This document shows, in pieces, positions 23,423-52,422 of a DNA stretch of 53,196 nt. The translations under genes were made by a program, and so were the position numbers. The DNA lies in the NCBI GenBank assembly GCA_902792815.1, contig CADBAY010000024.1, forward strand, positions 1 through 53,196, written 5' to 3'. Origin of the DNA: an uncultured Bacteroidia bacterium (GTDB lineage: Bacteria; Bacteroidota; Bacteroidia; Bacteroidales; UBA932). The notes under the pieces were generated by a model. The model had not been told where the DNA came from and searched no databases. It was given only the letters and a program-made list of their open reading frames with translations. The stretch's first letter is position 1. Every line of letters begins with the position of its first letter.

Positions 23423-24173
23423 CTAGAACTTCATTCCTGTACCGGTCATGATGAAGGAGTAGATATCTGCCTGCTCCTCAAGTACTTTGGCCATTGGCTT
23501 GCCGCCCCCGTGGCCCGCCTTGGTGTCGATGCGTATGAGGGTGGGGTTGGGCCCTGCGTTACACTCCTGCAGGGTAGCGGCGAACTTGAACGAATGGGCA
23601 GGCACCACGCGGTCGTCGTGGTCGGCGGTGGTTACAAGAGTTGCGGGATAGGATACTCCGGGCTTGAGATTATGCAGGGGAGAGTAGCCCAGCAGATACT
23701 TGAACATCTCGGGGCTGTCCTCACTGGTGCCGTAGCCGGGAGCCCAGTTCCAGCCGATTGTGAACTTGTGGTAGCGGAGCATATCCATTACGCCCACTTG
23801 CGGTATGGCAACGGCATACAGTTCAGGACGTTGCGTCATGCAGGCGCCCACCAGCAGGCCGCCGTTGGAGCCGCCCACGATGGCCAGGTGCGAGGGACTT
23901 GTATATCCTTGCTCTATCAGCCACTCGGCAGCCGCTATGAAGTCGTCGAACACATTCTGCTTGTTCATCTTGGTGCCCGCCAGGTGCCAGGCCTCGCCGT
24001 ACTCGCCGCCACCGCGGAGATTCACCTGTGCGTATATGCCGCCCCTCTCGAGGAAGGGTACGCGTGTGGCTGAGAATCCCGGCGGCAGGGAGATGTCGAA
24101 TCCGCCGTATCCGTACAGGTACACGGGGTTCTGCCCGTTCAGTTCCAATCCTTTACGGTAGGTCAGGAACATA

Positions 24174-24182
<9 letters not shown>
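23423..24182 (-). pseudogene. Prolyl oligopeptidase, C-terminal catalytic part only (copy 1)
   Basis: The reading gives the hydrolase domain of an S9A prolyl oligopeptidase: YGYGGFDIS near residue 20, nucleophile elbow VGGSNGGLL with the catalytic Ser near residue 100, [11 protein letters not shown] with the Asp near residue 187, and KAGHGGGKP with the His near residue 222. The normal enzyme has about 700 residues. Here the beta-propeller and N-terminus are gone and the sequence switches at 24182 to a GH106-like gene. A near-identical copy ends the window (52437-53196), sharing exactly the last 99 bases. It is either a real gene truncation or an assembly joint; the fragment is unlikely to work alone. 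Confidence 0.85.
24084..24182. repeat. 99-bp exact repeat, copy 1 (with 53098-53196)
   Basis: These 99 bases equal the last 99 bases of the window. The first mismatch inward is C24083 versus T53097. The outward end is the joint with the GH106-like fragment here and the end of the window there. The wider 750-bp region is also alike but carries scattered differences. Confidence 0.95.
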
Positions 24183-30563: not shown

Positions 30564-33509
30564 TCAATAGCAAGTGTATGGCCCGTATGTGGCTTCCACC
30601 GCAAACGAGAAGTCGGTATCGCGGAGTTTATAAACGTAGAACTGCTTTCCGCCGGGAGATACGCGTATCACGAAATGCCCGCCGTAGTCCTTGACTTTGG
30701 ATGCCAGGTCGGCCACGGGAGTGCCGGCCTTGATGGAGGCGCTGTTGTCCAGTCTCCCTTCGTGGATGTTGGTCATGAACACATCGCCCCATTGATTGTG
30801 ATAGCTGAAAGCAGGGTCGCCGGGCTTGTCGGAGTCGAAAATCTGTGCCACTGTGACCTTGGGCTGGAGGATGGCGGCCGCGGACTCGTTGAGGGTGTCG
30901 TGGTACAAGTGATGGTTGGCCTTCATGGCCTCCACCTTGTTGCCCCATCCGCTCACTATGCGCTGCATCATGCCTGTCTGGCAGGCGCAGTCGCCGCCGC
31001 TGTAGTAGTCGAAATCGCCGTAGGAGATGAGCACTGTGGCGCATTCTCCGTTTTCGGTCAGCGACCCGCTGTAGGTGCCGAAGCCGCTGCCGTTCCAGTA
31101 CTTGCCGTTGGCTCCGAGGTTGTACACGGTCAGGTCGTAGGAACTGTCGTATTTGGGGATGAACTGCTTCTTGTAGTTGCCGCTGGCGTTCAAATTGAAG
31201 GCGTACCAGGCCATACCGTCCCGGGATTCCCGGTACTCGGCAAACTGGCGGAAGTCTTTGTAAATATCTGTGCTGTAGTCGCTTGTTGTGGGGGTGAAGG
31301 TGGGCCCGCAACGGTCCACCAGCTTCTTGATGGGCAGGTCGTCATACACGGCCATGACGCCGCTGCGGCAGTAGCCGTTGCCGCTCTTGCCGAAGGAGGC
31401 ACGACTCTGGCCCATGTGGTCGATGTGGTAGTGGGACAGCAGGAAGTAGTCCAGATACTCGTGCCCTGTGGCCTGCAGGAAGTATTTTGCGTAGGTAGTA
31501 TATACCTTGAACGGACGTACGACGGAGTTGGGCTTCTGGTCCACGGCCTTGGCCGAGGAAGTATAGTATTCGCCGGCGTCTATCATCATGGACGTGCCGT
31601 CGGGCATGATGACCAGTGTGCATTCACCGCGGCCGGAGTTGATGGCGTGGATGTCCAGATAGCCCTTCTGCCAAGGGGATAGGCTGCCGGCATCCGGTTG
31701 CGGCAGCGGGTCGGGAACGGGCTCGAAGCCGTCGGAGCACAGCACGGGACGTATCGGAAGACACTTCTGCACATGGCCTACGCCGTAGGCGGCATCGCTG
31801 TTCAGATGTACTGTGTAGCCATAGTCGCAGGAGTTCCCGGCGCGGAATCCGAGCACGGTGGTGGCATGGTCGGAGTCGGGATACTTGCTCAGGTCAAGCC
31901 CCGAGAAGGTGCCGCTGCGGTAGTATCCCTGGGCGTTGACGTAGTAGATTTTGTTGGTATTACCGCCGCTGATGTAACGGCCGCGTCCGGCCTTGGGAAG
32001 GAACAACCCGCTTTCCAGGTCGGCGGGAGTGAGTTCCACGGCATCGGTTTCGAGGGTGGAGCTTTCCCAGGACGGGGTGGAAGTCAGCAGTATGCCGTAG
32101 ATGCGGTTGCCGTTTACGTTTACGTATCCTGCCTTTCCGCTGGCGTTGGAGGAAGAGCTGCCTGCACGCAGGACCGAGATTTCGGCCGCCGTGGGTATGC
32201 GGTACTGTCCTTTGCTGGCCCAGAAAGCCACGTCGCCGTGGAGTGCACAGCCGGTGGCGAAGGTGCCGCCAGAGGGAACGGCGAAGCAGTCGTCGCCGCT
32301 GAGTTCGGAAGCCTCAAGGTCCTCGCCGCTGCCGCTTGAGGTAGTGAAAATGCGCCCGGCGATGCTGAATTTGGCGTCAGTTGGGAGCATGTAGCCGGCG
32401 TCGGCTTTCCATGCGTCTCCGGCTATTCCGCCCCAGTTGAAGCGGTCGAAGGCGGAGGACGACTGGGTGATGGTGACGCCCGTGCCGCTGGTGCCCACCT
32501 GGTCGCAGCCCAGGAATTCGTACTGCTGCGAGCCCAGGTGCCAGCCGCTCTGGAAGCCTTCGGAGGTCTTTCCGTCAGCAATCAGGTTGCCGGAGGCCCA
32601 CCATGTGCCTTCCACCTTGCGGACGGCGCTGCTGCGGGTGCATTTGCTCCTGATGTCCAGCGTCGGCATGGCCAGGTAGTCGGCCGGCTGCAGGCTGAGG
32701 GATGCCTTGCCGAAGGCGATGCGCTCAAGGCCTTCGATGGGGACTTCGTCACCGTCGATTATGGCGATGTGAAGGTCAGAATAGTCTCCCGGAGGAACGG
32801 CCATGCTGAAATGCAGTTCGGTGCCGTAGCCCTCGCCGCTGGGGAAGGTGATGATCTGGGAGGATGCGATGGAGTCCGATTTGATGGGCCCTGGTCCGGC
32901 AGTGTCGAAGCTGAAGCTGCCGCTGATGCGCAATCCGCCGGCGCTGAGTACCAAAGCCCTGGCGTAGGCAGGAATGTCATGCAGGGTGATGTCGATGACG
33001 GGGGCGATGTGCTTGAAATAGAGGCTGGCCGTCTGGCTGCCGTCCATTTGGAATGCCGATGCCATGAGGGCCGGCGTGGCGTCGCTTCTCTCCTGAATGG
33101 GAGGGATGGTCACGGTGCCGGGAGCACTGCCGGCAAGGGCGTAGGGATAGACGGCCACGGCGCCCGGAGCACCGGAGAAAGATGAGCAGGTAAATGTGCC
33201 CTGCGAGGTGCCCGCCCCACCCGTGAGCGTGGCACGGAACTTCTGCCCGGAGGTGTTGTACAAGGCAATCTCGTCCCCGGCAGCCCAGGTGACCTTGCCG
33301 CTCGTGGCCACGGACACCTTGGTGCCCGGGACTGCCGCGGAGGTCAGAGTTTTGCCGGAAGTGCCTGGGGCGTAAGCCGTAAGGACCAACGTGCGGCCCT
33401 CCCGGTCTCCTCCCGGCCTCTCGCTTTCAGCCAACTCCCTGCAGCACCCTGCCAGCACCATTGCCGCCAGCACCCCAAAAACTGTCACGAATCGTCTCAT
33501 CTTTCTCAT
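30564..33509 (-). CDS. Large surface lipoprotein: fimbrillin-like + FISUMP-like + MBL domain (MBL paralog A)
   Basis: From ATG 33509 the protein has 981 residues; a GTG two codons earlier is also possible. The lipoprotein signal ends VLAGC. About 30-295 look like a fimbrillin-like domain (the WAAGDEIALYN and YPYAL strands), and about 300-605 resemble the FISUMP-type surface domain (WWASGNL, YRIPTAAEI, then a closing LPIRPV). From about 611 comes an MBL domain: GYLDIHAINSGRGEC, PDGTSMMIDAG, metal motif HYHIDH, GGD, and KANHH, ending GPYTCY. The MBL part is alike in three other window genes. It is related to the ComEC-type MBL domain but exported. It is probably a surface hydrolase; the substrate is unknown. 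Confidence 0.82.
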   Translation of the reverse strand: MRKMRRFVTVFGVLAAMVLAGCCRELAESERPGGDREGRTLVLTAYAPGTSGKTLTSAAVPGTKVSVATSGKVTWAAGDEIALYNTSGQKFRATLTGGAGTSQGTFTCSSFSGAPGAVAVYPYALAGSAPGTVTIPPIQERSDATPALMASAFQMDGSQTASLYFKHIAPVIDITLHDIPAYARALVLSAGGLRISGSFSFDTAGPGPIKSDSIASSQIITFPSGEGYGTELHFSMAVPPGDYSDLHIAIIDGDEVPIEGLERIAFGKASLSLQPADYLAMPTLDIRSKCTRSSAVRKVEGTWWASGNLIADGKTSEGFQSGWHLGSQQYEFLGCDQVGTSGTGVTITQSSSAFDRFNWGGIAGDAWKADAGYMLPTDAKFSIAGRIFTTSSGSGEDLEASELSGDDCFAVPSGGTFATGCALHGDVAFWASKGQYRIPTAAEISVLRAGSSSSNASGKAGYVNVNGNRIYGILLTSTPSWESSTLETDAVELTPADLESGLFLPKAGRGRYISGGNTNKIYYVNAQGYYRSGTFSGLDLSKYPDSDHATTVLGFRAGNSCDYGYTVHLNSDAAYGVGHVQKCLPIRPVLCSDGFEPVPDPLPQPDAGSLSPWQKGYLDIHAINSGRGECTLVIMPDGTSMMIDAGEYYTSSAKAVDQKPNSVVRPFKVYTTYAKYFLQATGHEYLDYFLLSHYHIDHMGQSRASFGKSGNGYCRSGVMAVYDDLPIKKLVDRCGPTFTPTTSDYSTDIYKDFRQFAEYRESRDGMAWYAFNLNASGNYKKQFIPKYDSSYDLTVYNLGANGKYWNGSGFGTYSGSLTENGECATVLISYGDFDYYSGGDCACQTGMMQRIVSGWGNKVEAMKANHHLYHDTLNESAAAILQPKVTVAQIFDSDKPGDPAFSYHNQWGDVFMTNIHEGRLDNSASIKAGTPVADLASKVKDYGGHFVIRVSPGGKQFYVYKLRDTDFSFAVEATYGPYTCY

Positions 33510-33563
33510 AAACACCCTTTATCAATAACAATCTCCTCCTTCTGCCCTCCTCACCCCCTGCTC

Positions 33564-33725: not shown

Positions 33726-36227
33726 CTATTCGTTCACAAACGTGGCCCAGATAGTGTCTCCTCCGGTAGATTGAACACCAGAATCGGAGAATCCGGCGTC
33801 CGTGCCTGCCAAGAGTCTCTTATAAGTTCCACTGTCAACAGCACTGCCGTTAACGGTAATTCCGGAATGAACCTTTACAGGTTGTGTTTCAGTACCGAAT
33901 GTTGTTGAATGCTGACTGTACATTCCAACAATGAGGCCTGCATTGCCTGCATATCCACAACTGATTGCCCCGGACACTTCACAATTAGCACCTGTACTTG
34001 TGCTCTTTCCGTTAATAAGACCTACGATACCACCGGCTGCGAATCTGCCTGTTGTTCCAGAAACTGAAACAGTACCAATATTTACGCAATTAGTGATTGT
34101 TCCAGCAGTATAATTGCCAACAACTCCGCCAACATATTCATAAATTGCTGCGCTATTTTTGGTTGAGTTTGTTCTGACAATGCCCTTATTAACGCAACTG
34201 TCTAGTGTACCTTGATTAAGCAAGCCTACAATGCCCCCTACTCTTTGATTCTTCTTAGTTGTTATTTGTTCTAAATCTTCAACAACTCCAGATTCAGCAT
34301 TTTCACATGATTGGATAGTACCGTTGGCAGACATTAGCGAACCTACGATGCCTCCATATTTTCCTTGAGAGCATGAAACATCACCTAATTTTTTTATTCG
34401 CCCATAATTGGTGCAGTTGGATACTATGGTTTTGTTTTTAATTGTACCTACAATGCCGCCAATTCCAGTATCATTAGCAGAGCTGTTTGAAAATGTAAAA
34501 AATTGTACAGCGCCATTGATGGCATTTGAACAGTTCGAAAGTGTTATATTTGGAACAGATTCGTCTCCACTAGAATGATCCATACCCAAAATACCACCAA
34601 TAAATACTTGATTGGCTAATATATCAACAGTTGTTCCTACGCAACCATCGTTATGGCAGTCAGTAACCATGGTGTTCTGAGTGTTACCTCCGCATCGCCC
34701 AATGATACCGCCGATAAAAGTGTTACCGAAGTTGGAAGATGCCTTTGAACGTATAACCGAACCATAATTGTAGCACAAATCAAACTTTGAGTTGTCTCCT
34801 CCTATTGTTCCGACAATACCACCAGCATAAACTGTAGTATAATCGATAGCCAAATCAATTATTGCATGGTTTGAGCAATTATCCAGAGAACAATCATTCC
34901 CGGTGCGCCCTGTAATTCCTCCTACATGGACTTCTTGAGATTGTTTGGCTGTTATGGCGATGTAATTATCAATGTTCATAAGAGAACTTCTTGTGGTAGT
35001 TCCGGACAAGGCTCCTATTTTAGATGCTTTACCCTCAGTTTCAGCTGTAATATGGCTCGTTTCATCCCATTTTTTTGTTAAAGGATTGGCACCAAGGAGC
35101 AAATCCTTTACTCTCAATATATCTTCTCTGCTGGAAGAAGAGGTAATGGATGAGAAGAAACCACAATTTTCGGTAATTGTAGTATTGATAATGATGTTAT
35201 AAATACTGTGTCCCTGTCCGTCAAGACATCCGGCAAAGCCTGTGGCATCATTCCCATTCACAGGCGTCCAGGTACCTCCTTCATAGTTGATATCAGCTCC
35301 GAGTTTGACGGTCTCGCCGGCGAGGTAGTAGTCGGCGTACTTGGCCCATTTGTCGAGGTCGGCTTTGGTGGAGAGGGGGCCGAGCCACTTGAGGGTTCCG
35401 AGGTCGCTGAATTTCTTGCCTCCGTTGAGCGGGAGGTCGATTGCGCTGGAGCCGGTCTTGAAGGCCTTAAGGGTTCCGTTGTCGGCGTCTTCCTTGGAGA
35501 AGGCAAAACGGAAGCTGCTCACCCCGCTTTGAGGATATACTACGGCAAAGTAGTTCTGCCCTGCAGCGAAGCTGCCCTTGACGATAACTTTGCCGGCATT
35601 TCCTGAGACTGCTGCCGGAGCCGCTGCATTGACGCTGGCTACTCCCGCAACCTGCAGGGCGGTACCTTCGGCGTCAAATGCCTCGAATCTCACATATCCG
35701 TCCAGGGCTTCGGGAGCCTTGAACTCCACAAGTGAGGATATGTTCTTGAACACCATGTTGTCCTTGTCGGAGGTCTTGCAAACCTGTACAAGGGCATCCT
35801 TGGCCACGCACCCGCCGGAAGGGATGACCTGCACGTCAGGCAGGGTTACGGCCAGAACGTCTTCCGAGACCGCCGCTGACGGAGCCGCAGATGCAGGATA
35901 AACGGCATAATATGTATCACCTTCCGCTATGTTGACGGAGAACGTGGCATAACGTCCGTTGTTCTCGATGGCGGAATCGGTAAGGGGCTCTGAAGAAACC
36001 CATTCCGTGCCGTTGTAGACGGCAATCTGGTCGCCTGCTTCCCAGACCACGGCGTAGTCGGAGTTGAGAGAGGCTTTTGTGTCCGGCTGTTCAAGGACGG
36101 CCCTGAAAGTCAAGGTCTCCGCGGCAGGCTGGGGAGTAACGGCTTCCTCGGGTTCGATTGCCCTGTTGCATGATAAAACTGTAGCGAGCGCCAGAGAGGC
36201 GGCAAAAATATATGCTGACTTTTTCAT
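33726..36227 (-). CDS. GLUG-repeat surface lipoprotein 2 (833 residues)
   Basis: A lipoprotein signal (VLSC, Cys20) leads into a fimbrillin-like domain (about 35-285) with VWEAGDQIAVYNG and YYAVYPASA. From about 320 the chain is made of GLUG-type beta-helix repeats, with many copies of GGIVG followed by a NCxNxG turn, up to a closing TIWATF. Such repeats occur in bacterial adhesins and surface proteins. It is a clear paralog of the 821-residue protein upstream with the same architecture. The repeat half (about 33840-35210) is much richer in A+T than the N-terminal half, suggesting a recombined segment. A 45-residue peptide gene ends 12 bases before its start. Confidence 0.82.
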   Translation of the reverse strand: MKKSAYIFAASLALATVLSCNRAIEPEEAVTPQPAAETLTFRAVLEQPDTKASLNSDYAVVWEAGDQIAVYNGTEWVSSEPLTDSAIENNGRYATFSVNIAEGDTYYAVYPASAAPSAAVSEDVLAVTLPDVQVIPSGGCVAKDALVQVCKTSDKDNMVFKNISSLVEFKAPEALDGYVRFEAFDAEGTALQVAGVASVNAAAPAAVSGNAGKVIVKGSFAAGQNYFAVVYPQSGVSSFRFAFSKEDADNGTLKAFKTGSSAIDLPLNGGKKFSDLGTLKWLGPLSTKADLDKWAKYADYYLAGETVKLGADINYEGGTWTPVNGNDATGFAGCLDGQGHSIYNIIINTTITENCGFFSSITSSSSREDILRVKDLLLGANPLTKKWDETSHITAETEGKASKIGALSGTTTRSSLMNIDNYIAITAKQSQEVHVGGITGRTGNDCSLDNCSNHAIIDLAIDYTTVYAGGIVGTIGGDNSKFDLCYNYGSVIRSKASSNFGNTFIGGIIGRCGGNTQNTMVTDCHNDGCVGTTVDILANQVFIGGILGMDHSSGDESVPNITLSNCSNAINGAVQFFTFSNSSANDTGIGGIVGTIKNKTIVSNCTNYGRIKKLGDVSCSQGKYGGIVGSLMSANGTIQSCENAESGVVEDLEQITTKKNQRVGGIVGLLNQGTLDSCVNKGIVRTNSTKNSAAIYEYVGGVVGNYTAGTITNCVNIGTVSVSGTTGRFAAGGIVGLINGKSTSTGANCEVSGAISCGYAGNAGLIVGMYSQHSTTFGTETQPVKVHSGITVNGSAVDSGTYKRLLAGTDAGFSDSGVQSTGGDTIWATFVNE
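33840..35210. other. A+T-rich block inside the GLUG gene
   Basis: By eye, lines across this block run at roughly 35-45% G+C, while the sequence on either side and the paralogous GLUG gene are well above 50%. The shift near 35205 is abrupt and falls inside one open frame, at the passage from the LDGQGHSIYN segment into the repeats. Confidence 0.75.
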
Positions 36228-36239
36228 GACTCTGATCTT

Positions 36240-36377
36240 TTAATCGTCTTCCCATTCAACGCCTGTTACTTCCTCTGTAGGATTGTACTTTGCGCCATTG
36301 CTCTGGCACAGCACCCCGGCAAGGTCCACGATGTGGACCTTGAGTGCGGGAGTGATATATAAGCTATTGTTATTCAT
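36240..36377 (-). CDS. Small Cys peptide 1 (45 residues), unknown family
   Basis: This short frame starts 10 bases after the first GLUG gene's stop and ends 12 bases before the second GLUG gene's start. It has no hydrophobic signal core and no transmembrane segment. Its middle reads YITPALKV, then GVLCQSNG, and it ends VEWEDD. Tyr7, Pro10, Cys24, Gln25 and Ser26 match the two other small peptides at the same spacing (Y-x2-P-x13-C-Q-[SA]). The acidic Trp-bearing tail is also shared. I recall many unnamed Bacteroidales peptides of this look near surface-protein genes, but no function. It could be a maturation substrate, signal or chaperone-like partner. Confidence 0.7.
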   Translation of the reverse strand: MNNNSLYITPALKVHIVDLAGVLCQSNGAKYNPTEEVTGVEWEDD

Positions 36378-36387
36378 GGTGTTATAA

Positions 36388-38853
36388 TTATTCGAAGATT
36401 GCCCATATGGTGTTGTTGCCGCTGGCGACGCCGGAGGCGGTGATGCCGTAGGCGGAACCGGCGAGAAGAGAACCGTAGTTGGATGCGGTTACATTGGTGT
36501 CGTTGACGGAGCAGCCGGATTTGACCTTGATAGGCGAAGCAGATGTGCCCCACACGGTGGTGACTGAGTTGGAGAAGCGTCCTATGACTATTCCGGCGTT
36601 GACGGCGTCGCCGCAGCTGACGCGGCACTTAACCACGCAGCCCTCACCGGTAAGGTTGTCGTTGGAACTGCCGTTCTGGAGGCCGATGAGGCCGCCGGCG
36701 CTGCGGACCATACCGTCAACAGCCTGGGCTTCAACTACGACATCGCCATAGTTGGAGCAGTTCCTGAACTTGCCTACGGTGCTGTTGCCGGTAAGGCCGC
36801 CTACATAGGTCTGCTTGACACCATCGGCCGAGGAAACGAGGGCATAGTTGGTGCAGCCTTCGTACTGGCCCCTCTGGGCGAAGCCGGAAATGCCGCCCAG
36901 GCGCTCATTCTTGGCGGAGGTCTGTAAAAGGTCGGATACTGCGCCCTTGGTGGAGTCGCCGCTCTTGCCGTTGATGCAGTCTTTGACAAGGCCATTCTCG
37001 TCGGAAGTCATGCCTATGATTCCGCCGTAGCAGCCCTCGCTTGCGTGGTTGCCCAATTTGGCTACAGGACCGAGGTTGACGCAGTCCTGAACAAGGCTGG
37101 CATTGGACATACGGCCCATTATGCCGCCGGCGGCAACATAAGACGCCTGGCTTTGGTTGAAACCTTTGATGTCTCCCTCGTTGGTGCAGTTGAGAACCTG
37201 GAGATTCATTTTGGTGGATTCCGCAAGAACGCTTCCGTCCATGCCCACAATGCCTCCGAAGTATAACTGGCCGGCCTTGACATTGACTGTGGCCTCGATG
37301 GTTCCGGTGTTGGAGCATCCGGTGATAACGCATCCGTCGGTTTCATTGCCGGTACGCCCGAGGATGCCGCCATATACTACAACGCCCTTGTCGGGAGACG
37401 CCACATCGCGGGCGACGCGGCCGGTGTTGGTGCAGTTGCTGATTATGGTGTTGTCGTAGACAGTGCCAACAATGCCGCCGAAATACACGCCCTTGCAGTT
37501 GCTGTTGCATACTACATCGCCGTTGTTGGTGCAGGAACTGATCTCCGAGTTGTTCATGGAACGCCCCACCAGACCGCCGAAGACAGCAGTACCGCTGGAT
37601 ATAACTCCTTCGTATGTGACGGGAATGTTGTTGGTAACGTTCTGGATGATGGTATTCTTGATGCGGCCTGCAAGGGCGCCGGCATTCTCGCTGCTGGCTG
37701 ACGAAATTACAAGCGCGCTTTTATCTTCTTCACGGCCCAGAGTAAGGTTCCTGACGCGGAGCATCTTGTCGTTGGATGCAAGTGTGGAGAAGAAGCCGGG
37801 GAACTGCTCGTCGTCGGAAATCACGATATTGTAGATGTTGTGTCCGGCTCCGTCGAAGATACCGGCAAAATGACCGGAATTGGCGTTTCCATTGACGGGC
37901 TTCCAGGTCTCGCCGCCGTAGTTGATGTCGGCTGCGAGTTCGACAACCTCGCCGGCGGCGTAGAAGTCGGCCAGGGATGCCCACAGGTCAAGGTCGGCCT
38001 TGGTGCGTATTTTGTCGAACCATTTGAGCGTTCCGAAGTCCTCGAACTTGCGGCCGCCGCTGACGGGCAGGTCGAAGCCTGCTGCAGAATTACCGGTGCG
38101 GAGAGCCTTCTGCGAGCCCTTGGAGAAGCAGAAACGGATAGTTCCTACAGCTGCCTGGGGCCATACCGCGGCAAAATAGTTCTGGCCGGCGGTGAAGGAG
38201 CCGCTCACGCTCATGACAGGATCGGTTCCGGAGGCTGCGCCGGGCTCGGCGGCGACTGCTGCGTCACCGGACATCCTGATGGCTGCTCCGTCGGGAGTGA
38301 AGCCCTCAAGATATACGGAGGTGATGCCGCTCTCGGGTGCCTTGAACTCCACGAGCGAAACGGCATTCTTGAACGTTACCTTGGTGGGCTCGGTGCTGGT
38401 GCCTATCTGCACAAGTGCAGCAGGGTCGACGGTTCCGCCGGACGGAATCACTTGCTCGGAGGGCAGGGTGAGCATTACGGAGCCTGCGGCAGCGCCCTCG
38501 GGAAGGGCGGCGGAGGAAACGGCCGAAGCCGGATAGACCAGGGTGTAAGAGCTTGCCTCGCCGATAGTTACGGTAAATGAAGCGGTGCGTCCGTCATCCT
38601 CGATGTCGGCCTCGGTGATTGCGGTTGAGTTGGCCCATGCCGAGCCGTTGTAAACTGCGATGACGTCGCCCTCTTCCCAGCAAACCTTGTAGGCGTCGAG
38701 TGTAGCCTTGGTGGGCTGGTCAAGGGTGGCGGTGAAGCGGATGGTTCCGGGGGTGGCGGCAGGAGTCTCGGTGCGGACTTCCTTGGTACATGCGAAGGCG
38801 GCAAGAGCGGCCGCTGCGACCAGTATGGTTTTAACTAACTGTTTCATTGTCAT
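36388..38853 (-). CDS. GLUG-repeat surface lipoprotein 1 (821 residues)
   Basis: A lipoprotein signal (AFAC, Cys22; a second ATG two codons in is possible) precedes a fimbrillin-like domain (about 35-275) with VCWEEGDVIAVYNG and YTLVYPASA. A linker with TKADLDLWA follows, then GLUG-type beta-helix repeats (about 310-815) with repeated GGIVG, GGILG or GGLVG and NCTNxG turns, closing with NNTIWAIFE. It is the G+C-rich paralog of the 833-residue protein. The protein is expected on the cell surface, anchored by lipid. A 45-residue Cys peptide lies 19 bases upstream and another lies just downstream. Confidence 0.83.
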   Translation of the reverse strand: MTMKQLVKTILVAAAALAAFACTKEVRTETPAATPGTIRFTATLDQPTKATLDAYKVCWEEGDVIAVYNGSAWANSTAITEADIEDDGRTASFTVTIGEASSYTLVYPASAVSSAALPEGAAAGSVMLTLPSEQVIPSGGTVDPAALVQIGTSTEPTKVTFKNAVSLVEFKAPESGITSVYLEGFTPDGAAIRMSGDAAVAAEPGAASGTDPVMSVSGSFTAGQNYFAAVWPQAAVGTIRFCFSKGSQKALRTGNSAAGFDLPVSGGRKFEDFGTLKWFDKIRTKADLDLWASLADFYAAGEVVELAADINYGGETWKPVNGNANSGHFAGIFDGAGHNIYNIVISDDEQFPGFFSTLASNDKMLRVRNLTLGREEDKSALVISSASSENAGALAGRIKNTIIQNVTNNIPVTYEGVISSGTAVFGGLVGRSMNNSEISSCTNNGDVVCNSNCKGVYFGGIVGTVYDNTIISNCTNTGRVARDVASPDKGVVVYGGILGRTGNETDGCVITGCSNTGTIEATVNVKAGQLYFGGIVGMDGSVLAESTKMNLQVLNCTNEGDIKGFNQSQASYVAAGGIMGRMSNASLVQDCVNLGPVAKLGNHASEGCYGGIIGMTSDENGLVKDCINGKSGDSTKGAVSDLLQTSAKNERLGGISGFAQRGQYEGCTNYALVSSADGVKQTYVGGLTGNSTVGKFRNCSNYGDVVVEAQAVDGMVRSAGGLIGLQNGSSNDNLTGEGCVVKCRVSCGDAVNAGIVIGRFSNSVTTVWGTSASPIKVKSGCSVNDTNVTASNYGSLLAGSAYGITASGVASGNNTIWAIFE

Positions 38854-38872
38854 TGATTTTAGATGTTAAACA

Positions 38873-39010
38873 CTAGTCGCCCCAAGTGAGGTCGTCAACC
38901 GTTGTGGGATCCTGGAATTCGCCGCCGCTGGCCTGGCAAAGGCCCAGGGCACAGTCAAAAGGTTCCGCGTAAACCTGCGGAGGGTTGTAAGCCAATTTTA
39001 GTTTGTCCAT
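38873..39010 (-). CDS. Small Cys peptide 2 (45 residues), unknown family
   Basis: The frame begins 18 bases after small peptide 3 and stops 19 bases before the first GLUG gene. Its sequence includes YNPPQVYAE, then ALGLCQASGG, and it ends DLTWGD. Tyr8, Pro11, Cys25, Gln26 and Ala27 fit the shared Y-x2-P-x13-C-Q-[SA] pattern; a second Cys at 20 is its own. It is acidic and has no signal peptide or membrane segment. The G+C-rich codon use matches its neighbours, which supports real coding. The function is unknown. Confidence 0.68.
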   Translation of the reverse strand: MDKLKLAYNPPQVYAEPFDCALGLCQASGGEFQDPTTVDDLTWGD

Positions 39011-39028
39011 GATATATGTGATTATTAA

Positions 39029-39139
39029 TTATTCCCATTCACCTTCACGCCATGTCATGTCTTCCGTGTCCGACTGGCACAGAAGAGAGAGGGGAAGCTG
39101 CTGTACGGCTTCGACGGCAGGCGCTATGTACTCTTTCAT
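39029..39139 (-). CDS. Small Cys peptide 3 (36 residues), unknown family
   Basis: The ATG overlaps the TGA of MBL paralog B (ATGA), which implies translational coupling. The peptide opens KEYIAPAVEAV, continues LSLLCQSDTED and ends with a Trp-rich acidic MTWREGEWE. Tyr4, Pro7, Cys21, Gln22 and Ser23 match peptides 1 and 2 without any gap. It has no signal peptide. Placed between an MBL gene and peptide 2, it shows that the peptides travel with both gene types. The role is unknown. Confidence 0.72.
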   Translation of the reverse strand: MKEYIAPAVEAVQQLPLSLLCQSDTEDMTWREGEWE

Positions 39140-40413
39140 TCGCATTCAAAAGGTCCTTCGACCGATTTTATTTTATAGAGATTGTTGGTGTCGTCGAGCT
39201 GGAAAACCCAGAAGCGTTCACCGCCCGGGGCTACGCGGATGGCCACGTGGCCGTTGACATGGCAGTGATCGTAAAGGTCTTTGTTTGGCGTGGTTATGAC
39301 ATCGTCGACACCGGTAAAGTAAAGCGATACTCCGGTATCGTAGTAAGAGCCGTCCAGCAGGGCCTTGATGGTCTCGAGCATGGGCTGGTCGGTGCGGCGG
39401 GCAAAGCTCTGCGTGACTATCACCTTGGGCTTGAGTATGCCCATCTGGGCCTGCGGCAGGCAGTTTACCGACATATGATGGTCGGCCTTCATTGCCTCTA
39501 TCGGCCTTCCTATCACTTTTGCCACGGGTACGGCCATCTTGGTGTTGCCGCCGGCGTCGCCGGCAGTGTAGTAGTCGAACTTGCCGTAGCTGATGAGGCT
39601 GATGCAGCAGGCGCCGTTTTCGTAGGGGACGCTGCTGCCGTAGGCGTCAACAATGGCGCTGCCATTCCAGTATTCGCCGTTGACTCCGTAATTGAATATC
39701 TTGAAAGAAGGGTACTTGGCGGCATTGTAGCAGAGGGTGATCTGCTTGTCGGTGCCTGCCTCGAAACGTTCCATCACGAGTCCCTTCTTGGAGGTGGCAT
39801 ACTTGACGAAGTTGGTGTAGTCCCCGTGCATGCTGGCGCTGTAGCTGGTTGCGCTGGTCTTGACAAACTCATATTCCGGGTCGTCGGCGCTCCAGGCGCG
39901 GTCGATCAGCTTCTTGTACGGCAAGGTAGTGTACAGGGCCATCATGCCAGTCTGGGTATAGCCCTCGGAACTCACAATGAAGCCCTTGCCCTTGGGCGTG
40001 CCGAAATGGTCGATGTGGAAATGGCTCATTACGGCATAGTCCAGATAATTGCGTCCCGTGGCCTCCAGGAAGTGCTTCATGTAGCGCGACTGCGTGAAAT
40101 ACGCCCTGGTGTTGCTGTTGGGCCTTTGGGTAACTGATACGGGGGACGTGGTGGAAGTCACCACCTCGCCGGCGTCGATTATCATGGAGGTGCCGTCGGG
40201 CATCATGAAGAAGGTGCACTCGCCGCGGCCGGTGCTGATGGCGTGGATGTCCAGCCAGCCTTCCTGCCAGGCGGGCAGGGCATCGCCGACTGCGGCCTCG
40301 TCCGGTGCCTTTGACGAGGGCTTGGGAGTCTCTCCGCCCTGGTCAGGCTTCTGGCCGCAGGATGCGAGAGCCAGTGCGGCCAAAACCAATGAATATAGCT
40401 TTCTTATTTGCAT
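39136..40413 (-). CDS. Exported MBL-fold lipoprotein (MBL paralog B, 425 residues)
   Basis: A lipoprotein signal (LALASC, Cys19) is followed by a short linker and then, from about residue 48, the MBL domain: WLDIHAISTGRGEC, PDGTSMIIDAG, the metal motif HFHIDHFG, an AGDAGG Asp near residue 265, and a KADHH near residue 285. The last 45 residues hold GHVAIRVAPGG and end GPFECE. The opening strands correspond to the DVGQGD region of ComEC-type MBL proteins, but there is no membrane channel domain. It is presumably a surface or periplasmic metal hydrolase with an unknown substrate. It overlaps paralog C by 10 bases and small peptide 3 by 4. Confidence 0.82.
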   Translation of the reverse strand: MQIRKLYSLVLAALALASCGQKPDQGGETPKPSSKAPDEAAVGDALPAWQEGWLDIHAISTGRGECTFFMMPDGTSMIIDAGEVVTSTTSPVSVTQRPNSNTRAYFTQSRYMKHFLEATGRNYLDYAVMSHFHIDHFGTPKGKGFIVSSEGYTQTGMMALYTTLPYKKLIDRAWSADDPEYEFVKTSATSYSASMHGDYTNFVKYATSKKGLVMERFEAGTDKQITLCYNAAKYPSFKIFNYGVNGEYWNGSAIVDAYGSSVPYENGACCISLISYGKFDYYTAGDAGGNTKMAVPVAKVIGRPIEAMKADHHMSVNCLPQAQMGILKPKVIVTQSFARRTDQPMLETIKALLDGSYYDTGVSLYFTGVDDVITTPNKDLYDHCHVNGHVAIRVAPGGERFWVFQLDDTNNLYKIKSVEGPFECE

Positions 40414-41582
40414 TTGAAAGGTCCGTCAACTTGAATTATATTGTATTCGAAATTAGTGTCATCCAACAAATATACAAAAAATTCTTCTCCGCCGGGCATC
40501 ACCCTTATCACCACATGTCCGTTCATGCCGGAGGCCTTGTCGTAGATGTCTTTGTGCAGGTTTCGCTGTTCTTCTCCGAGGTTGGTAAAGTAGTATTTTG
40601 TGTCCAGGCCCATCGGATTGTCCAGCAACAGGTGGGTGAGAGTCTCTACGTCGGGCTGGATTTCCCTAACCGAGAATACCTGCGTCACGACCACCTGAGG
40701 CCGGTAGATGCTCATGGTCTCGTCTTTCATGCAGTGGTAGGAGAAGTGGTGGTCGGCCTTCATGGCCTCGATGGGCCGGCCTATCGCCCTGGCCACCGGG
40801 TAAGCCACGGCGCCGTTGCCGCCGGCGTCGCCTCCGGTGTAGTAGTCAAAGTCTCCGTAGCTCAGCAGGAAACAGCACGAAGCGCCGTTTTCTTTCATGT
40901 CTTTGCCCTCGTACACGTTGACCTTCTTGGTGCCGTCCCACACGATTCCGCTGGCGGCGTAGTTGGTGATCTTGAAATTCCTGTAGCGGCAGGGCCGGTG
41001 GCGGAGGCGCATCTGTCCTGTGTCCCCGACCTTCATGCTCTCGGCCTTCATGCCGTCGTGGGCGGTGGCGTAGCGCACGAACTTGGGATAGAATGTGCTG
41101 TGCGAGCTGGACGGCAGCCAGATGCTCTCGTATTCAGGATATGAGCGGTCTATCAGCGTGCGGATTGGAATCTCCTTCTGCAGGGCCGCAATGCCGGTGA
41201 GCACATAGCCTCCCTCCGGCTCGACTTCCATGCCCTCTTCTTCCGTGCCGAAATGGTCCATGTGATAATGGGTTATGAGGGCATAGTCCAGGGCGCCCTT
41301 GGCCTTGCGGGGCATGAAATGCCGGATATATCGGGCATAGACCTCGCAGGGCCGTACATCGGCCGATGGCTTAGGCGGCACGCTGGGGTATCTTTTTGAT
41401 CTCCAGTTAATCCATTCTCCGGCGTCTACCAGCATGGTGGTGCCGTCGGGCAACACGAAAAAGGTGCACTCTCCGCGGCCAGAATTGATGGCATGAATGT
41501 CGAGATACCCCTCCTGCCACGGGGGCAGTGGGGTACCTGCGACAACGGCTGAAGCCAGAACGGAAACCAACAGCTTTATCAT
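40404..41582 (-). CDS. Exported MBL-fold protein (MBL paralog C, 392 residues)
   Basis: A short signal peptide without a lipid Cys leads straight into the MBL domain at about residue 20: GYLDIHAINSGRGEC, PDGTTMLVDAG, the metal motif HYHMDHFG near residue 110, TGGDAGG near residue 257, and KADHH near residue 281. It ends with HVVIRVMPGG and GPFKCK. As the smallest paralog it defines the minimal unit of the family. It is likely soluble in the periplasm, in contrast to the lipid-anchored paralogs. Its start overlaps the stop of the 645-residue lipoprotein (ATGA). Confidence 0.82.
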   Translation of the reverse strand: MIKLLVSVLASAVVAGTPLPPWQEGYLDIHAINSGRGECTFFVLPDGTTMLVDAGEWINWRSKRYPSVPPKPSADVRPCEVYARYIRHFMPRKAKGALDYALITHYHMDHFGTEEEGMEVEPEGGYVLTGIAALQKEIPIRTLIDRSYPEYESIWLPSSSHSTFYPKFVRYATAHDGMKAESMKVGDTGQMRLRHRPCRYRNFKITNYAASGIVWDGTKKVNVYEGKDMKENGASCCFLLSYGDFDYYTGGDAGGNGAVAYPVARAIGRPIEAMKADHHFSYHCMKDETMSIYRPQVVVTQVFSVREIQPDVETLTHLLLDNPMGLDTKYYFTNLGEEQRNLHKDIYDKASGMNGHVVIRVMPGGEEFFVYLLDDTNFEYNIIQVDGPFKCK

Positions 41583-43527: not shown

Positions 43528-45310
43528 TTAATAACCGGGGTTCTGGTTCTCCTGGCCGATGGCGGCGTTGGTGCGGATTTCCCTGTCGGGAAGCGGCCAG
43601 AGCTCGTCTTTGCCGGGCTGATAGTACAGATTGATGAGGGTGCGGAGGTTGAAAGCCTTGCCGTCCCAGGTGTCGGAAGTGTTGTAGCTGACCGTCCAGT
43701 TCTCGTCAATTGTAGGCTTTGCGTTGGAAATGATGTCCTTGAAGCCGGGAGCGTACTGGGGACCGTTCATGACCTTTTCCGCAAGTGCGCGGCCGTCGGA
43801 CATTTTCCAGCGGCGTATGTCGAACCAGCGGAAGCCCTCGTCGCACAGTTCAACGGTGCGCTCGTAACGCAGGGCGCTGCGGAGTTCGGCGCGGTCCAGG
43901 GTAGTAATCTTCGGCATCTTTACCCTCTGACGCACCTGATTGATGTCGTTCTGTGCGCGTTTGAGGTCGCCGCCGTCCCACTCGATATTGGCTTCGGCGT
44001 CGATGAGCAGCAGCTCGGCGTAACGCATTATGCACACGTCCAGGTCGTCCTCATAGGTGTTGGTGAGGGTGGCACCGTAGTAGGCCGGATCGCCGAATTT
44101 GCGCCACAGGTAGCCGCCGGGGCCCTTGGTGCCGTTGGGCATAGACGTCGTTGTTGTTGACCATGGCTCCGGTGTTGTAGTCGCGCACCTGCTTCTTGGA
44201 GGGGTCGGTGCTGTATTCAACTCCGTTGTAGCGGGTGTCTGAGCGCAGGCAGTACAGGTCCAGACGGGGATCGCGATGGTTCCATGGATCCTGCCAGTTG
44301 TAGAGGGGCGACTCGGTTATGGACTTGCCGTCGGTACACTGGAAGGTGTCCATCAGGGCCTGGGAAGGACCGCATCCGGCAGCGCCGTTATGGACTCGGG
44401 AGGAGTAGGTGTAAACCATTGCGTGAGTGTTGGATGCGGCCAGTTTGTTGAACTGTATGCCCCACATCCACTCGTCGCTCTTCTCGCCTTCATAGCCGTG
44501 CAGATTGGCGGCGGAAGGCTCTCCCTCCGTGGCTGCATTGGGATAGTAGGTGCAGTCCAGGGGCTCCAGCTTGTACACGCCCTCGGCGAGTTCCATGGCT
44601 ATGCGGGAGTATTTTGCCGCCTCCTCGAAACGTCCCCAGTTAAGGCAGATGCGTGCCTTGAGGGTATAGGCGGCAGCCCTGCCCAGGCGGGCGGTGCCCC
44701 ATGTGTTCTTGTCCCAGCGCACCGGGAGATAGTTCAGCAGGTCGTCGTCCATGTCGTTGAGGATGCGGTCTATGACCTGCTCCTTGGGCGTGCGCGGGTA
44801 TTCGTAGTCGGACAAGGTGAGGCAGTGGTCGATGAAGGGAATGTCGCCGTAGAACTGGCAGCCCATGTCGTAAACCAGGGCCCTGAGGCTCAGCAGTTCC
44901 GCCTTGAACTGCATGTAAGTCTCTTCCGACATCTTGTCCTTGATGTTGTCCAGGTTGTCGAGCACCAGATGGATACGGCCGGCCGTCTTGTAAATCCTGG
45001 TGTACATGATGGTTGCGGCGCTGGTGGTCTGCGTGGCCGTGGAGGTCACGAGCAGGTTCCAGCTGCTCAGGCCGATACGGGTGGTTCCTATGTCGGTGAG
45101 GTTGTCCACGAAACGCCAGGGATACGGACTGTACTGGCTAACCGAGTTTGCAAGGTTCTTATAGCTTACCAGGACTCCGGCCAGGGCTTCCTCCTCGCTT
45201 GCGGGGAAGGTTCCGGTGGACGGACCGTTGAGCGGGTAGCGCTCCAGGGCTTTTTCGCAGGATGCAAGCGCAAGTACCGATGCAAGAATCAATATGATGT
45301 ACTTTTTCAT
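43528..45310 (-). pseudogene. susD: SusD-like surface lipoprotein with a frameshift
   Basis: The N-terminal part (lipoprotein signal LALASC, Cys18; then RYPLNGPSTGTFP and the usual helical TPR-like SusD core) reads in one frame from 45310 to about 44150. The C-terminal part (KGPGGYLWRKFGDP, CIMRYAELLLIDAEA, ELCDEGFRWFDIRRW, PLPDREI) reads in another from there to 43528. Joined, they give a complete SusD. The break lies between about 44130 and 44165, near AACAACAACGACG, and fits one extra base. It may be a true mutation or a sequence error. SusD lids the SusC channel, so a real lesion would disable uptake. Confidence 0.85.
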
Positions 45311-49813: not shown

Positions 49814-50353
49814 ATGACCGAAGACAAGCAACTCATCCTGCAGATACGCAACGGAGACCGCGGAGCCTTTGACAGGCTGTTCCGCAGGTGGTATCCGACG
49901 CTGCTTGCCTATGCTTGTCACTATCTGCCCCGGGAAGATGCCGAAGACGTGGTCCAGGATGTAATGTCTTCGTTGTGGACCAATTCGGGAAACATCGTTA
50001 TCAAGGGAGAAACAGGTCCCTACCTGCATGCTGCCGTGCGGAACCGTTGCCTGAACTGTCTGGAGCATTCAGTCGTCGACAAACGCTACCATTCCTCTGT
50101 GCGTCAGTCCGTTATCGATGCTGTCAGCATTGAGGACCAGACTTCCGTGCGCGAACTTAGTTCACTTCTGTCCGATGCGCTCGAGGCTCTGCCGCCCGAG
50201 CAGCGGGAGGCCTTCCGCAAGAGCCGTTCCGAGGGACTCAAATACAGTCAGATAGCTGCCGAGAGCAAAGTGTCGGTGAAGACTGTCGAGTATCGTATCT
50301 CTCAGGCGCTCAGGAAGTTGCGTTTTGCCTTCGCGGACTACTTGCACAAGTAG
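49814..50353 (+). CDS. ECF RNA polymerase sigma factor
   Basis: The 179-residue protein shows region 2 (FDRLFRRWYPTLLAYA, then REDAEDVVQDVMSSLW at about 17-56) and region 4 (LEALPPEQREAF, then YSQIAAESKVSVKTVEYRISQALRKLR at about 120-172). It is the typical FecI/SusC-linked type and is expected to drive the minus-strand susC array once released by FecR. It is transcribed away from fecR. Its last 16 bases overlap the end of MBL paralog D on the other strand, so the two messages are complementary at their 3' ends. Confidence 0.95.
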   Translation: MTEDKQLILQIRNGDRGAFDRLFRRWYPTLLAYACHYLPREDAEDVVQDVMSSLWTNSGNIVIKGETGPYLHAAVRNRCLNCLEHSVVDKRYHSSVRQSVIDAVSIEDQTSVRELSSLLSDALEALPPEQREAFRKSRSEGLKYSQIAAESKVSVKTVEYRISQALRKLRFAFADYLHK

Positions 50354-52422
50354 GGGCCGAATATTGCCTTAACCCTGTACTCCAGGTCGGAGTCGTCCAG
50401 CACATACACATAGAATGCTTCGCCTCCGGGCAGTATGCGCAGCACTACATGCCCCCGGGTTGCGGAGAATTTGCCTACGTTCACTCCCTCGCCGGTCAGG
50501 GTTTCCACATTGCTCTGCGCCAGGTTGGTGGTGAAAATCTTGACGGACGGGCTGGCGGCAAGCACCCGCTTGATCGTGGCGGGGTTGGGCTGGACGTCCT
50601 GCCATACGCCGGCCACGTAGACATCCGGCTTCAGCACTCCAAGGAGTTCGGTGCTGTTGGTGTTCTTTGTGCTGTGGTGGCTGGCCTTCATGGCTTCCAC
50701 CTTCTTCATGACCTTGGAGATGGGCAGTTCTATGTCTTTCCAGGAATAGGTGCTCTTGCCGGTGAACTGGATGTCGCCTCCCGAGAACCAGTCGAACTTG
50801 CCGTAGCTGAGGTGGAAAACGCATGAGTAGATGTTCTCGTTGATGGCCCACTCGTCGATGTTTGCAAGGCATTGGGCAGTAGAAGGTACGTAGGAGGTGT
50901 TCACCCCAGTGCCGGAGCCTGTCCAGATGTCGCCTCCGGCGGCAATGCCGCGCACGCTGAACCCGGAATACTTTGATGGTGAGTGCTTTAGTACGATCTG
51001 GTCGGTATGCCCTATGGCCAGTTTCTCACGCACTGTTCCGTGGTTGGCGGCGCTCCATGCCAGGAAATTGGTGTAGTTGAGGTACAATTTCTGGCTGTTC
51101 TCGTCGAGGTAGTCGCCGGAAGGGCGGTCGCCCCAGTCGCCTCTGTCGATGACTTTGTCGATGGGGATTGACATGCCCACGTCGGGAAGGCCGTTGACCA
51201 CGAAACCGCCGGCGGCAAGGTTGACCGTGCCCACCGGAGTGCCGCTGCTGTTGACCGGCTGCCAGTGGAATTTGGAATACTTGTCCCTCCAGGCACCGAT
51301 GTGGTCACCGTGGTAGTGCGAGGCCATGAAGTAGTCGAGCCGGCCGCCGGCGACAACCGGGGCGAAATGGCGTATGTAGTTGACTATCACTTGCCCGCAG
51401 CTTATCGCCACGCTGGGTTTTGAGGCAATGCCGGAGTCGTATCCGTACTCGCTCTGGGGGCCTCCTGCAGCATCTACCAGCATGGTGGTGCCGTCAGGGA
51501 AGATGTAATAGAACGCCTCGCCCCGTCCGCCGTTGATACCGTGGATGTCAAGGTATCCGGGCTGCCAGTGGGGAAGCGTCTGCCCTTCGACTGCCGCAGT
51601 AGGTGGCGTAAAGTCGACCTCCAGGGCCTCCATGCGCTTGATGCTGCTCCTTTTGACGGTCAGGGGCTTGGCGCTGGAAAATACGCAGCTGCCACCGTCG
51701 GAGGAAGCAACTGTCACAGTGAATCCTTTTTCGAAGGTCATGGGCGGCAGTGCGAACCAGAATTCCGCGGCTTTGTCTGCGGTGGCCCCCGGGCTCACCG
51801 GAGGATTGCAATCCAGCCTGACAGACCTGGATCCGCCGGACAGGATCTGTACGGAGGGCAGGCCGTCGGCCCAGCGGATCTGGGCCTCTCCTGCAAGCAG
51901 CTCGCCTCCGTTACCCTCGAGAGTGACGGAACTGACGGCTCCGGCTGATCCGTAAAACCTGAACACCAGGGCGCCGCAGGTATTCCTGAAGCCCAGAGAA
52001 GACGTTTCGGAACGTGCCGCCATGAGGCCCGCGCCGGGGCCGAAGGAGCCGGAGGCATAGCTCTGGACAGGCTGCAGCGTGGCTGCGACGCTGCCGTCGA
52101 AGTTTACGGAATTGGCCTCGGAATGAGGATAGACGGCGGTGTAGGGGCCATCGCCGGCGGAGCCGTCCGACAGGCGTTCAAGCCTTCCGGACACGTCTCC
52201 ATCCGTTCCGGCGAAGCTGTATTCTGCGTTTGAGCCGGCGGAGTCGAATATGCTTACCCTGTCGCCGGCGTGCCAGCACAGGTGGAACTGAGCGTCGACA
52301 TATGTCTTGCCTTCTTGCTCTATGGCAGCACTGAAAACGGGCCCGGAAACGGCCGCCGGTTCGATTGAGCAGGCGCAGGCCAGGGCGATGGCGCTTATGT
52401 AGAGAACCGTTTTTTTCATCAT
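50338..52422 (-). CDS. Exported MBL-fold lipoprotein with fimbrillin-like N-terminus (MBL paralog D, 694 residues)
   Basis: A lipoprotein signal (ALACAC) is followed by a fimbrillin-like domain (about 25-275) with CWHAGDRVSIFD and YTAVYPHSE. From about residue 283 comes the MBL domain: GYLDIHGINGGRGE, PDGTTMLVDAAGG, the metal motif HYHGDHIG, SGGDIQF, and a KASHHS. It ends with HVVLRILPGG and GPYLCK. It keeps the family's C-terminal Cys but has Ala where the others have Cys after GRGE, and Gly replaces the hydrophobic residue of the metal motif. The gene lies 14 bases after the peptidase stop and converges with the sigma gene. Confidence 0.83.
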   Translation of the reverse strand: MMKKTVLYISAIALACACSIEPAAVSGPVFSAAIEQEGKTYVDAQFHLCWHAGDRVSIFDSAGSNAEYSFAGTDGDVSGRLERLSDGSAGDGPYTAVYPHSEANSVNFDGSVAATLQPVQSYASGSFGPGAGLMAARSETSSLGFRNTCGALVFRFYGSAGAVSSVTLEGNGGELLAGEAQIRWADGLPSVQILSGGSRSVRLDCNPPVSPGATADKAAEFWFALPPMTFEKGFTVTVASSDGGSCVFSSAKPLTVKRSSIKRMEALEVDFTPPTAAVEGQTLPHWQPGYLDIHGINGGRGEAFYYIFPDGTTMLVDAAGGPQSEYGYDSGIASKPSVAISCGQVIVNYIRHFAPVVAGGRLDYFMASHYHGDHIGAWRDKYSKFHWQPVNSSGTPVGTVNLAAGGFVVNGLPDVGMSIPIDKVIDRGDWGDRPSGDYLDENSQKLYLNYTNFLAWSAANHGTVREKLAIGHTDQIVLKHSPSKYSGFSVRGIAAGGDIWTGSGTGVNTSYVPSTAQCLANIDEWAINENIYSCVFHLSYGKFDWFSGGDIQFTGKSTYSWKDIELPISKVMKKVEAMKASHHSTKNTNSTELLGVLKPDVYVAGVWQDVQPNPATIKRVLAASPSVKIFTTNLAQSNVETLTGEGVNVGKFSATRGHVVLRILPGGEAFYVYVLDDSDLEYRVKAIFGPYLCK

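Follow-up and report, generated by a model that had tools for sequence, protein, structure and literature searches.

Small YxxP peptides of Bacteroidales, mostly encoded beside lipoprotein genes, as probable dispersed precursors of a system resembling the Linear Polyphosphorylated Peptides

Linear Polyphosphorylated Peptides (LPPs) are ribosomally synthesized and post-translationally modified peptides (RiPPs) of the locus lppA/K/B/S/D/N of Paenibacillus alginolyticus, and their enzymes are the RiPP recognition element (RRE) LppB, the signal peptidase I (SpI)-like LppS, the HprK-like kinase LppK, the nucleotidyltransferase LppN, and the MsbA-like exporter LppD (PMC13381572). In the same publication, the precursor carries the motif YxxPxVLxHQxIxFETxxS, cleavage occurs before AQS, the phosphate is placed on Ser, the third residue of the core, and the authors, writing in May 2026, regard LPPs as confined to Bacillota and their role as unknown (PMC13381572). 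YxxP is the leader motif bound by lasso-type RREs (PMC13381572, PMC12710340). The present study concerns three small peptides, A, B, and C, encoded in a 53,196-nt stretch of an uncultured Bacteroidia bacterium (Bacteroidales, UBA932; contig CADBAY010000024.1 of assembly GCA_902792815.1), the whole of which is referred to as the window. Based on their sequences and on the analogy with LPPs, we regard it as probable, at about 0.83, that these peptides are dispersed LPP-like RiPP precursors and substrates of an LPP-like modification cassette. The peptides and the genes adjoining them are as follows:

36240..36377, minus strand: peptide A, 45 aa, a predicted YxxP leader (to ...AGVL) and the acidic core CQSNGAKYNPTEEVTGVEWEDD, with the boundary placed by analogy
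38873..39010, minus strand: peptide B, 45 aa, a predicted YxxP leader (to ...ALGL) and the acidic core CQASGGEFQDPTTVDDLTWGD, with a predicted boundary
39029..39139, minus strand: peptide C, 36 aa, leader and core CQSDTEDMTWREGEWE, with a predicted boundary
33726..36227, minus strand: GLUG-repeat lipoprotein with a fimbrillin-like N-terminal region, 12 nt downstream of peptide A
36388..38853, minus strand: GLUG-repeat lipoprotein with a fimbrillin-like N-terminal region, 19 nt downstream of peptide B
39136..40413, minus strand: metallo-beta-lactamase (MBL)-fold lipoprotein-type gene (HxHxDH by eye), overlapped by peptide C as ATGA

An earlier, sequence-only reading of this DNA had described three small frames of one direction that share the pattern Y-x2-P-x13-C-Q-[SA], and this description holds, as all three lie on the minus strand and each has the pattern exactly. 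It had placed all of them between the MBL and GLUG genes, which is not the case for peptide A, located between both GLUG genes in the minus-strand order (5' to 3') MBL - MBL - C - B - GLUG - A - GLUG. The ATGA coupling of one frame to an MBL gene was found as described, with the start of peptide C overlapping the MBL stop (starting from another in-frame ATG, at 39145, C would have 38 aa), and so were the two intervals of less than 20 bases before a GLUG gene, the stops of A and B being 12 and 19 nt from the ATG of their respective lipoproteins; 18 nt separate the stop of C from the ATG of B. The GLUG match of the lipoprotein at 33726..36227 is below the Pfam cut-off (18.4 vs 20.5 bits). Written as DNA (TCN/GCN at the last codon), the pattern picked out B and C in the window, 100 dinucleotide shuffles gave no match, and peptide A falls outside this form because its Ser codon is AGC. 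Neither Pfam nor NCBIfam gave a match for A, B, or C at E<=1.

A profile built from the three window peptides recovered further copies in the same genome, which has 14 copies at E<=0.001 (profile of 43 rows), and in the genus 40 of 61 genomes had at least one copy at E<=0.1, with up to 20 per genome (profile of nine rows). Relatives were detected by a leader-only model in 12 of the 25 sampled genera of the family (119 genomes). The peptide family is under protein-level purifying selection: the pooled dN/dS of seven ortholog pairs, one of which was DNA-identical and uninformative, was 0.37 (47.3 changes at 182.5 synonymous sites vs 78.7 at 720.5 nonsynonymous sites; Fisher p 1e-6). Because homologs occur in the same genome and genus and this ratio is 0.37, not near 1, chance is excluded for the three frames; the sequence-only reading had called it unlikely. 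The conserved homologs that it expected near surface-protein genes also exist, 12 of the 14 copies in this genome lying directly before a lipoprotein gene and the remaining two (peptide C and one on contig C15) before another peptide of the family. An origin from phages was considered and rejected, 43 family members having no match in PHROGs at E<=0.01; the leader profile had no match in the PDB, and 56 peptides searched against NCBIfam at E<=1 gave five single noise-level matches, including lasso_cyano at 0.077.

In 56 aligned leaders, Tyr and Pro are constant by selection of the rows, which were picked with YxxP in view. Counted from this Pro, the residue at P+13 is I, L, F, or V in all 56, that at P+14 is Cys in 41, Ala in eight, and Leu or Met in seven, and that at P+16 is Ser in 49, P+13 alone being unforced because the patterns or profiles used to pick many of the rows are biased towards Ser and a small residue. 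The earlier emphasis on Cys is probably off the mark, Ala, Leu, or Met standing in its place in some copies and Ser two residues on being mostly kept. Among 98 distinct peptides selected solely for an early YxxP with a lipoprotein starting between -25 and +35 nt, a set that includes a few spurious members and many loci fetched by profile, [ILVFM][CA]x[SA] stood exactly at P+14 in 76, at P+15 in one, and at neither in 21. A separate set of 76 motif-bearing peptides, drawn from 88 peptide/lipoprotein pairs, had cores with a median of 21 aa, a net negative charge in 76/76, and an aromatic residue within the last six positions in 69/76. The approximate leader consensus in the Bacteroidales family is YEAPxIEVVEVxxEGVICQS. 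Rows discarded by eye as spurious were L189, L161/L215, L268 (first-pass match), L283 (minus-strand match), L265, and L271, together with one each in L135, L154, L194, and L272, and alignment A8 omits six rows of A7 (peptide C, one copy from this genome, two FMGxS types, one L194 type, and one G171 type).

The candidate modification genes of this genome form a single row outside the window:

Contig C5, ~92166-95411: HprK-like kinase, Sec11/SipW-like peptidase, PqqD-type protein, and ABC exporter in a tight row

The PqqD-type protein matched PF05402 at 60 bits, and PqqD was present in 52 of the 61 genus genomes. Its profile, when compared with PDB sequences, identified the YxxP-binding lasso RRE TfuB1 at 3.6e-6, ahead of TbiB1 (0.14), PbaB1 (0.37), and LppB (0.53), which are YxxP- or WxxP-binding RREs below significance, and up to E 10 only one unrelated protein stood beside these four. 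The best NCBIfam match of the exporter was TIGR02203 MsbA at 3.8e-69, below the family cut-off. The SM.P, HR, and GD boxes of the peptidase align with those of SEC11C; S35 and H73 belonged to the pattern by which the 26 sequences had been selected, and D88 did not. Regarding the kinase, its P-loop was used to pick the eight aligned rows; its relatives come mostly from metagenome-assembled genomes of rumen and gut, and the closest one with a genus name is from Candidatus Cryptobacteroides (L218, 64% identity). A nucleotidyltransferase of the NTP_transf_5 type (PF14907) was identified by profile in L159, other relatives being labelled by position and look.

Peptide and kinase occur in the same genomes. 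In the 119 family genomes, the strict peptide model matched 30 and the kinase profile 48, with both in 27, the strict peptide only in 3, the kinase only in 21, and neither in 68 (Fisher p 1e-10, calculated, as are all co-occurrence p values here, without regard to phylogeny), and under this model the kinase was found in seven of seven peptide genera vs five of 18 others (p 0.0016). The leader-only model matched 41 of the 119 genomes, in exactly the 12 kinase-bearing genera (both 38, peptide only 3, kinase only 10, neither 68), which is a consistency check and not an independent test because its training came partly from cassette-linked peptides. In an order-wide sample of 149, the kinase was present in 21, and the two peptide genomes outside the genus were the two best kinase matches outside the genus. 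Within the genus, a peptide at E<=0.001 was present in 28/52 genomes with PqqD vs 1/9 others (one-sided p 0.019).

In some clades, peptide and cassette are also physically linked. A second set of 20 further genomes comprised 19 of the 21 kinase-only genomes and G322, which had a strict peptide match elsewhere. In seven of these 19, a YxxP small open reading frame (ORF) before a lipoprotein lay beside the cassette (L194 twice, L195, L196, L197, L200, L209, L210; the gap to the lipoprotein in L197 is 70 nt, and the lipoprotein of L200 was called by eye), and these seven genomes cover all five kinase genera previously without a peptide match. Peptide and lipoprotein are situated between cassette genes in L196 (G213), upstream of the cassette in L200 (G315), L173 (G216), and L137 (G221), and just downstream of it in L171 (G255) and L172 (G218), and in L296 (G079, another family) the peptide lies 39 nt upstream of a kinase-peptidase-PqqD-nucleotidyltransferase-exporter row with no lipoprotein between. 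In L264, L268, L269, L270, L272, L273, and L283 they directly follow a peptidase-PqqD-nucleotidyltransferase row (labels by look), in a compact operon of the type kinase-peptidase-PqqD-nucleotidyltransferase-peptide (MKKMNK[MT]Y[EA]AP[KV]AE...)-lipoprotein.

A linked or nearby peptide was found in 4/20 regions from peptide-positive genomes (L171, L172, and L173, which were chosen with the linkage already visible in the coordinates, and L183; in L174 the peptide is 5.6 kb away), in 7/20 of the second set, in 3/12 regions around PqqD (L156, L157, L160, at 3-7 kb), and in 2/6 of the order set (L293, L296), L137 being left out of these counts as it had been fetched for its peptides. Among the 80 named cassette loci there were 15 (L232, L244, L257, L259, L264, L268, L269, L270, L272, L273, L274, L283, L284, L287, L289), in some of which the distance reaches 8.6 kb; 14 came from later passes that used ATG starts and allowed a less strict leader shape, and L257 was added from the first pass.

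Several observations on the modification genes stand apart from this. The radical SAM/SPASM protein matching TIGR04133 (window 19512-20585, E 9e-158) was considered as a maturase and set aside, no positional link having come to light, although no search for it across genomes was made. In L127, a gene similar to TIGR04133 radical SAM proteins (by look) adjoins a small lipoprotein gene. The genus genome G013 has a lasso-type cluster (L158) with two Asn-synthetase-like ORFs and HprK-like, PqqD, YcaO-like, and Transglut_core3 genes, as well as a peptidase/PqqD/NTP-transferase/ABC row (L159), with labels by eye in both loci except for PF13471, PF05402, and PF14907.

The likeness to LPPs lies in the YxxP leader of all three window peptides, in a Ser shortly after the presumed cut (AQS in LPPs; CQS, CES, AQS, and AAS in Bacteroidales), in the combination of a discrete RRE, a Sec11/SipW-like peptidase, an HprK-like kinase, and an MsbA-like exporter with no B2 peptidase, and in the putative NTP transferase of many Bacteroidales cassettes. 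The systems differ in phylum, Bacteroidota instead of Bacillota, and in architecture, the Bacteroidales precursors being dispersed, present in multiple copies in the genus of the window, and mostly beside a fimbrillin-like lipoprotein. Among the matches listed in the literature searched (subscription papers and preprints excluded), there was no Bacteroidota version of LPPs and no link to fimbrillins, and the terms "signal peptidase", "fimbri", and "YxxP" were not found in the available part of a survey of Bacteroidales RiPPs (PMC10352776). By analogy with LPPs, the leader M-x(n)-Y-x2-P-x13 would be bound via YxxP by the discrete PqqD-type RRE, the SpI/Sec11-like peptidase would cut next to residue P+14, which in this group is Cys or Ala, phosphorylation of Ser at P+16 would fall to the HprK-like kinase, and the MsbA-like ABC protein would export the acidic, aromatic-tailed core of approximately 21 residues. 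One cassette, that on contig C5 in this genome, may serve many dispersed precursors. Most of these are encoded immediately ahead of a fimbrillin-like surface lipoprotein, and it is probably with this protein that the exported core works at the surface. Of the three roles suggested by the sequence-only reading, that of a modification substrate is well supported by the YxxP leader, the co-occurrence with the cassette, and the operon linkage in several genera.

The genes downstream of the peptides bear on the other two. Across 86 peptide/lipoprotein pairs, selected by requiring the lipoprotein to start between -25 and +60 nt, the median gap was 13.5 nt; the gaps were mostly 12-16 nt, and 63 lay within 8-24 nt. 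In 74 aligned N-terminal parts of the lipoproteins, in which the lipobox was selected for, the Trp in the TK...W..GD.I.V region was kept in at least 90%; ten of the 74 matched PF13149 Mfa_like_1 (fimbrillin-like) and three NF038041 at E<=0.01. These features recall the Mfa/Fim fimbrillins of type V pili, and no such peptide cistron is known from Mfa/Fim operons. The lipoproteins are also diverse, single members of the 74 matching other families such as GH20, Omp28, and thioredoxin, and NCBIfam gave single weak matches to unrelated families. In G171, of another family (L120-L122, L124, L125), YxxP peptides whose tails resemble R..W.[DE].E come directly after large secreted proteins instead of preceding lipoproteins.

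In 73 pairs, core similarity followed lipoprotein similarity when the leader was held constant (partial rank 0.206; 0/500 permutations as high), and leader similarity did not (-0.045). After the removal of near relatives (57 pairs), the values were 0.111 (3/500 permutations) for the core and -0.033 for the leader, and with the lipoprotein cut to residues 25-130 or 130-400 the core correlation was 0.087 (17/500) or 0.093 (2/500). A comparison with the relative G011 (L067), which has the window order as far as peptide A and then a different lipoprotein, gives an example of each kind: for peptide B the leader has diverged, the core is identical, and the lipoprotein is near-identical, and for peptide A the leader is nearly identical and the core and lipoprotein differ (lipoproteins compared by eye). 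The sequence comparisons lend weak-to-moderate support to the view that the core works with its lipoprotein, and a partnership between the two appears plausible, at or slightly under even odds. As regards the other two suggested roles, synteny and core/lipoprotein co-variation speak for a link to the downstream surface protein, which may lie in signalling or in assembly.

A number of points weigh against the LPP-like reading. The HQ and FET of the LPP motif are absent from the Bacteroidales leaders, Ser is at P+16 instead of P+15, the cassette of this genome has no nucleotidyltransferase, and in the operon-linked clade of seven loci P+14 is Met or Leu and Ser is often missing. The enzyme assignments involve weak matches: the peptidase profile reached SEC11C at 0.0054 and signal peptidase IB at 0.0093 among PDB sequences and the peptidase had no Pfam or NCBIfam match, the kinase of this genome matched TIGR04352 at 0.0041, below the curated cut-off, and that of L137 matched TIGR04249, TIGR04355, TIGR00679, and PF07475 at 1.6e-4 to 0.005, also below cut-offs. 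No peptide was found in 19.5 kb around the cassette of this genome, and 65 of the 80 named cassette loci had no candidate within approximately 10 kb. A first automated pass over these 80 loci placed a peptide before 0/128 lipoprotein-type ORFs and 4/869 others, flagging four regions, two of them spurious; it found none before a lipoprotein because of its start-codon rule, and the same rule gave 5/26 lipoprotein-type vs 1/148 other ORFs in 20 regions and 6/53 vs 4/288 in 32 other cassette regions. Three peptide genomes (G232, G239, G257) had no kinase match, ten of the 48 kinase genomes had no peptide match even in the broad model, which was trained partly on adjacency finds, and the disregard of phylogeny affects every co-occurrence test. 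Composition common within genomes, or recombination inside the leader, could also feed the core/lipoprotein correlation.

The position of the peptides immediately 5' of a lipoprotein, at a gap of mostly 12-16 nt in the 86 pairs, would also be expected of a translation-coupled regulatory leader cistron, the translation or stalling of which sets lipoprotein expression and the peptide of which has no later life, and regulation by upstream ORFs is a known phenomenon. We consider this improbable; the peptide sequence is under purifying selection, the motif is located in the middle of the ORF and not at the stop codon, the peptides of G171 come after secreted-protein genes, that of G079 precedes a kinase gene with no lipoprotein between, and the association with an RRE cassette would be unaccounted for. 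Alternatively, the peptides may stay unmodified in the cytosol, each dedicated to its own lipoprotein as an export chaperone or a partner in assembly. This fits the pairing and the co-variation of core and lipoprotein; it leaves unexplained the YxxP leader and why the peptides co-occur, and are linked in operons, with an RRE/kinase/peptidase cassette, and we rate it as slightly more improbable still.

The alternative with the lowest standing, which we consider very improbable, is that the peptides are lasso-peptide precursors, with the B2 and C enzymes for their cyclisation encoded at other sites. YxxP is known as a leader motif of lasso peptides, the best PDB match of the PqqD profile is a lasso RRE, TfuB1, and lasso systems with a discrete B1 (paeninodin-like) share a [Y/W]xxP leader and a PqqD-type RRE and use an HprK-like kinase and a nucleotidyltransferase for tailoring. 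PF13471, the family of the B2 peptidase, however, had no match in this genome, matched 2/61 genus genomes at E<=0.001, and exceeded its cut-off in one (G013), which had no peptide match at E<=0.1; a Sec11-type peptidase takes its place in the cassette, the core pattern does not fit, and the residue before P+14 is I, L, F, or V in 56/56 leaders and not the penultimate Thr of lasso leaders. Lasso precursors were rejected on the missing PF13471 in this genome, the cyclase (PF00733) not having been searched for.

The reading of the peptides as LPP-like precursors may be extended further. In this tentative extension, to which we give somewhat less than even odds, one cassette would act in trans on up to approximately 20 scattered precursors per genome, and each mature phosphopeptide would have a fimbrillin-like lipoprotein of its own, which it would serve outside the cell as a dedicated partner, whether ligand, cap, or assembly subunit. 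If true, the genome would have a modular surface system of peptide plus adhesin, with interchangeable leaders and with core and lipoprotein exchanged together as one unit.

Other features of the contig are recorded here for completeness. Four related MBL-fold lipoprotein-type genes are present (30564-33515, 39136-40413, 40404-41582, and 50338-52422), with weak Lactamase_B matches; the second, which is ATGA-coupled to peptide C, was assigned by look. A SusD-type gene at 43528-45310 is split into two overlapping frames, by a frameshift or a sequencing error, and in L067 (14571-16373) the relative has one ORF of 600 aa. A 736-bp stretch at 23447-24182, corresponding to a prolyl-oligopeptidase-like C-terminal part (by look), recurs at the contig end (52461-53196) with 91% identity.

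Taken together, these results make it likely, by analogy, that an LPP-like system exists in a new phylum, Bacteroidota, with a dispersed architecture paired with surface proteins. They bring to light an unannotated family of small proteins, abundant among Bacteroidales of the gut and rumen, that has no match in the copies of Pfam and NCBIfam searched and that cluster-based RiPP mining would miss wherever precursors and enzymes are not neighbours. The compact operon loci (L264, L268-L270, L272, L273, L283) lend themselves well to initial bench work, and the presence of many dispersed precursors, most of them tied to one surface lipoprotein, provides a concrete and testable clue to the function of LPPs, namely, that of a partner of a surface adhesin.

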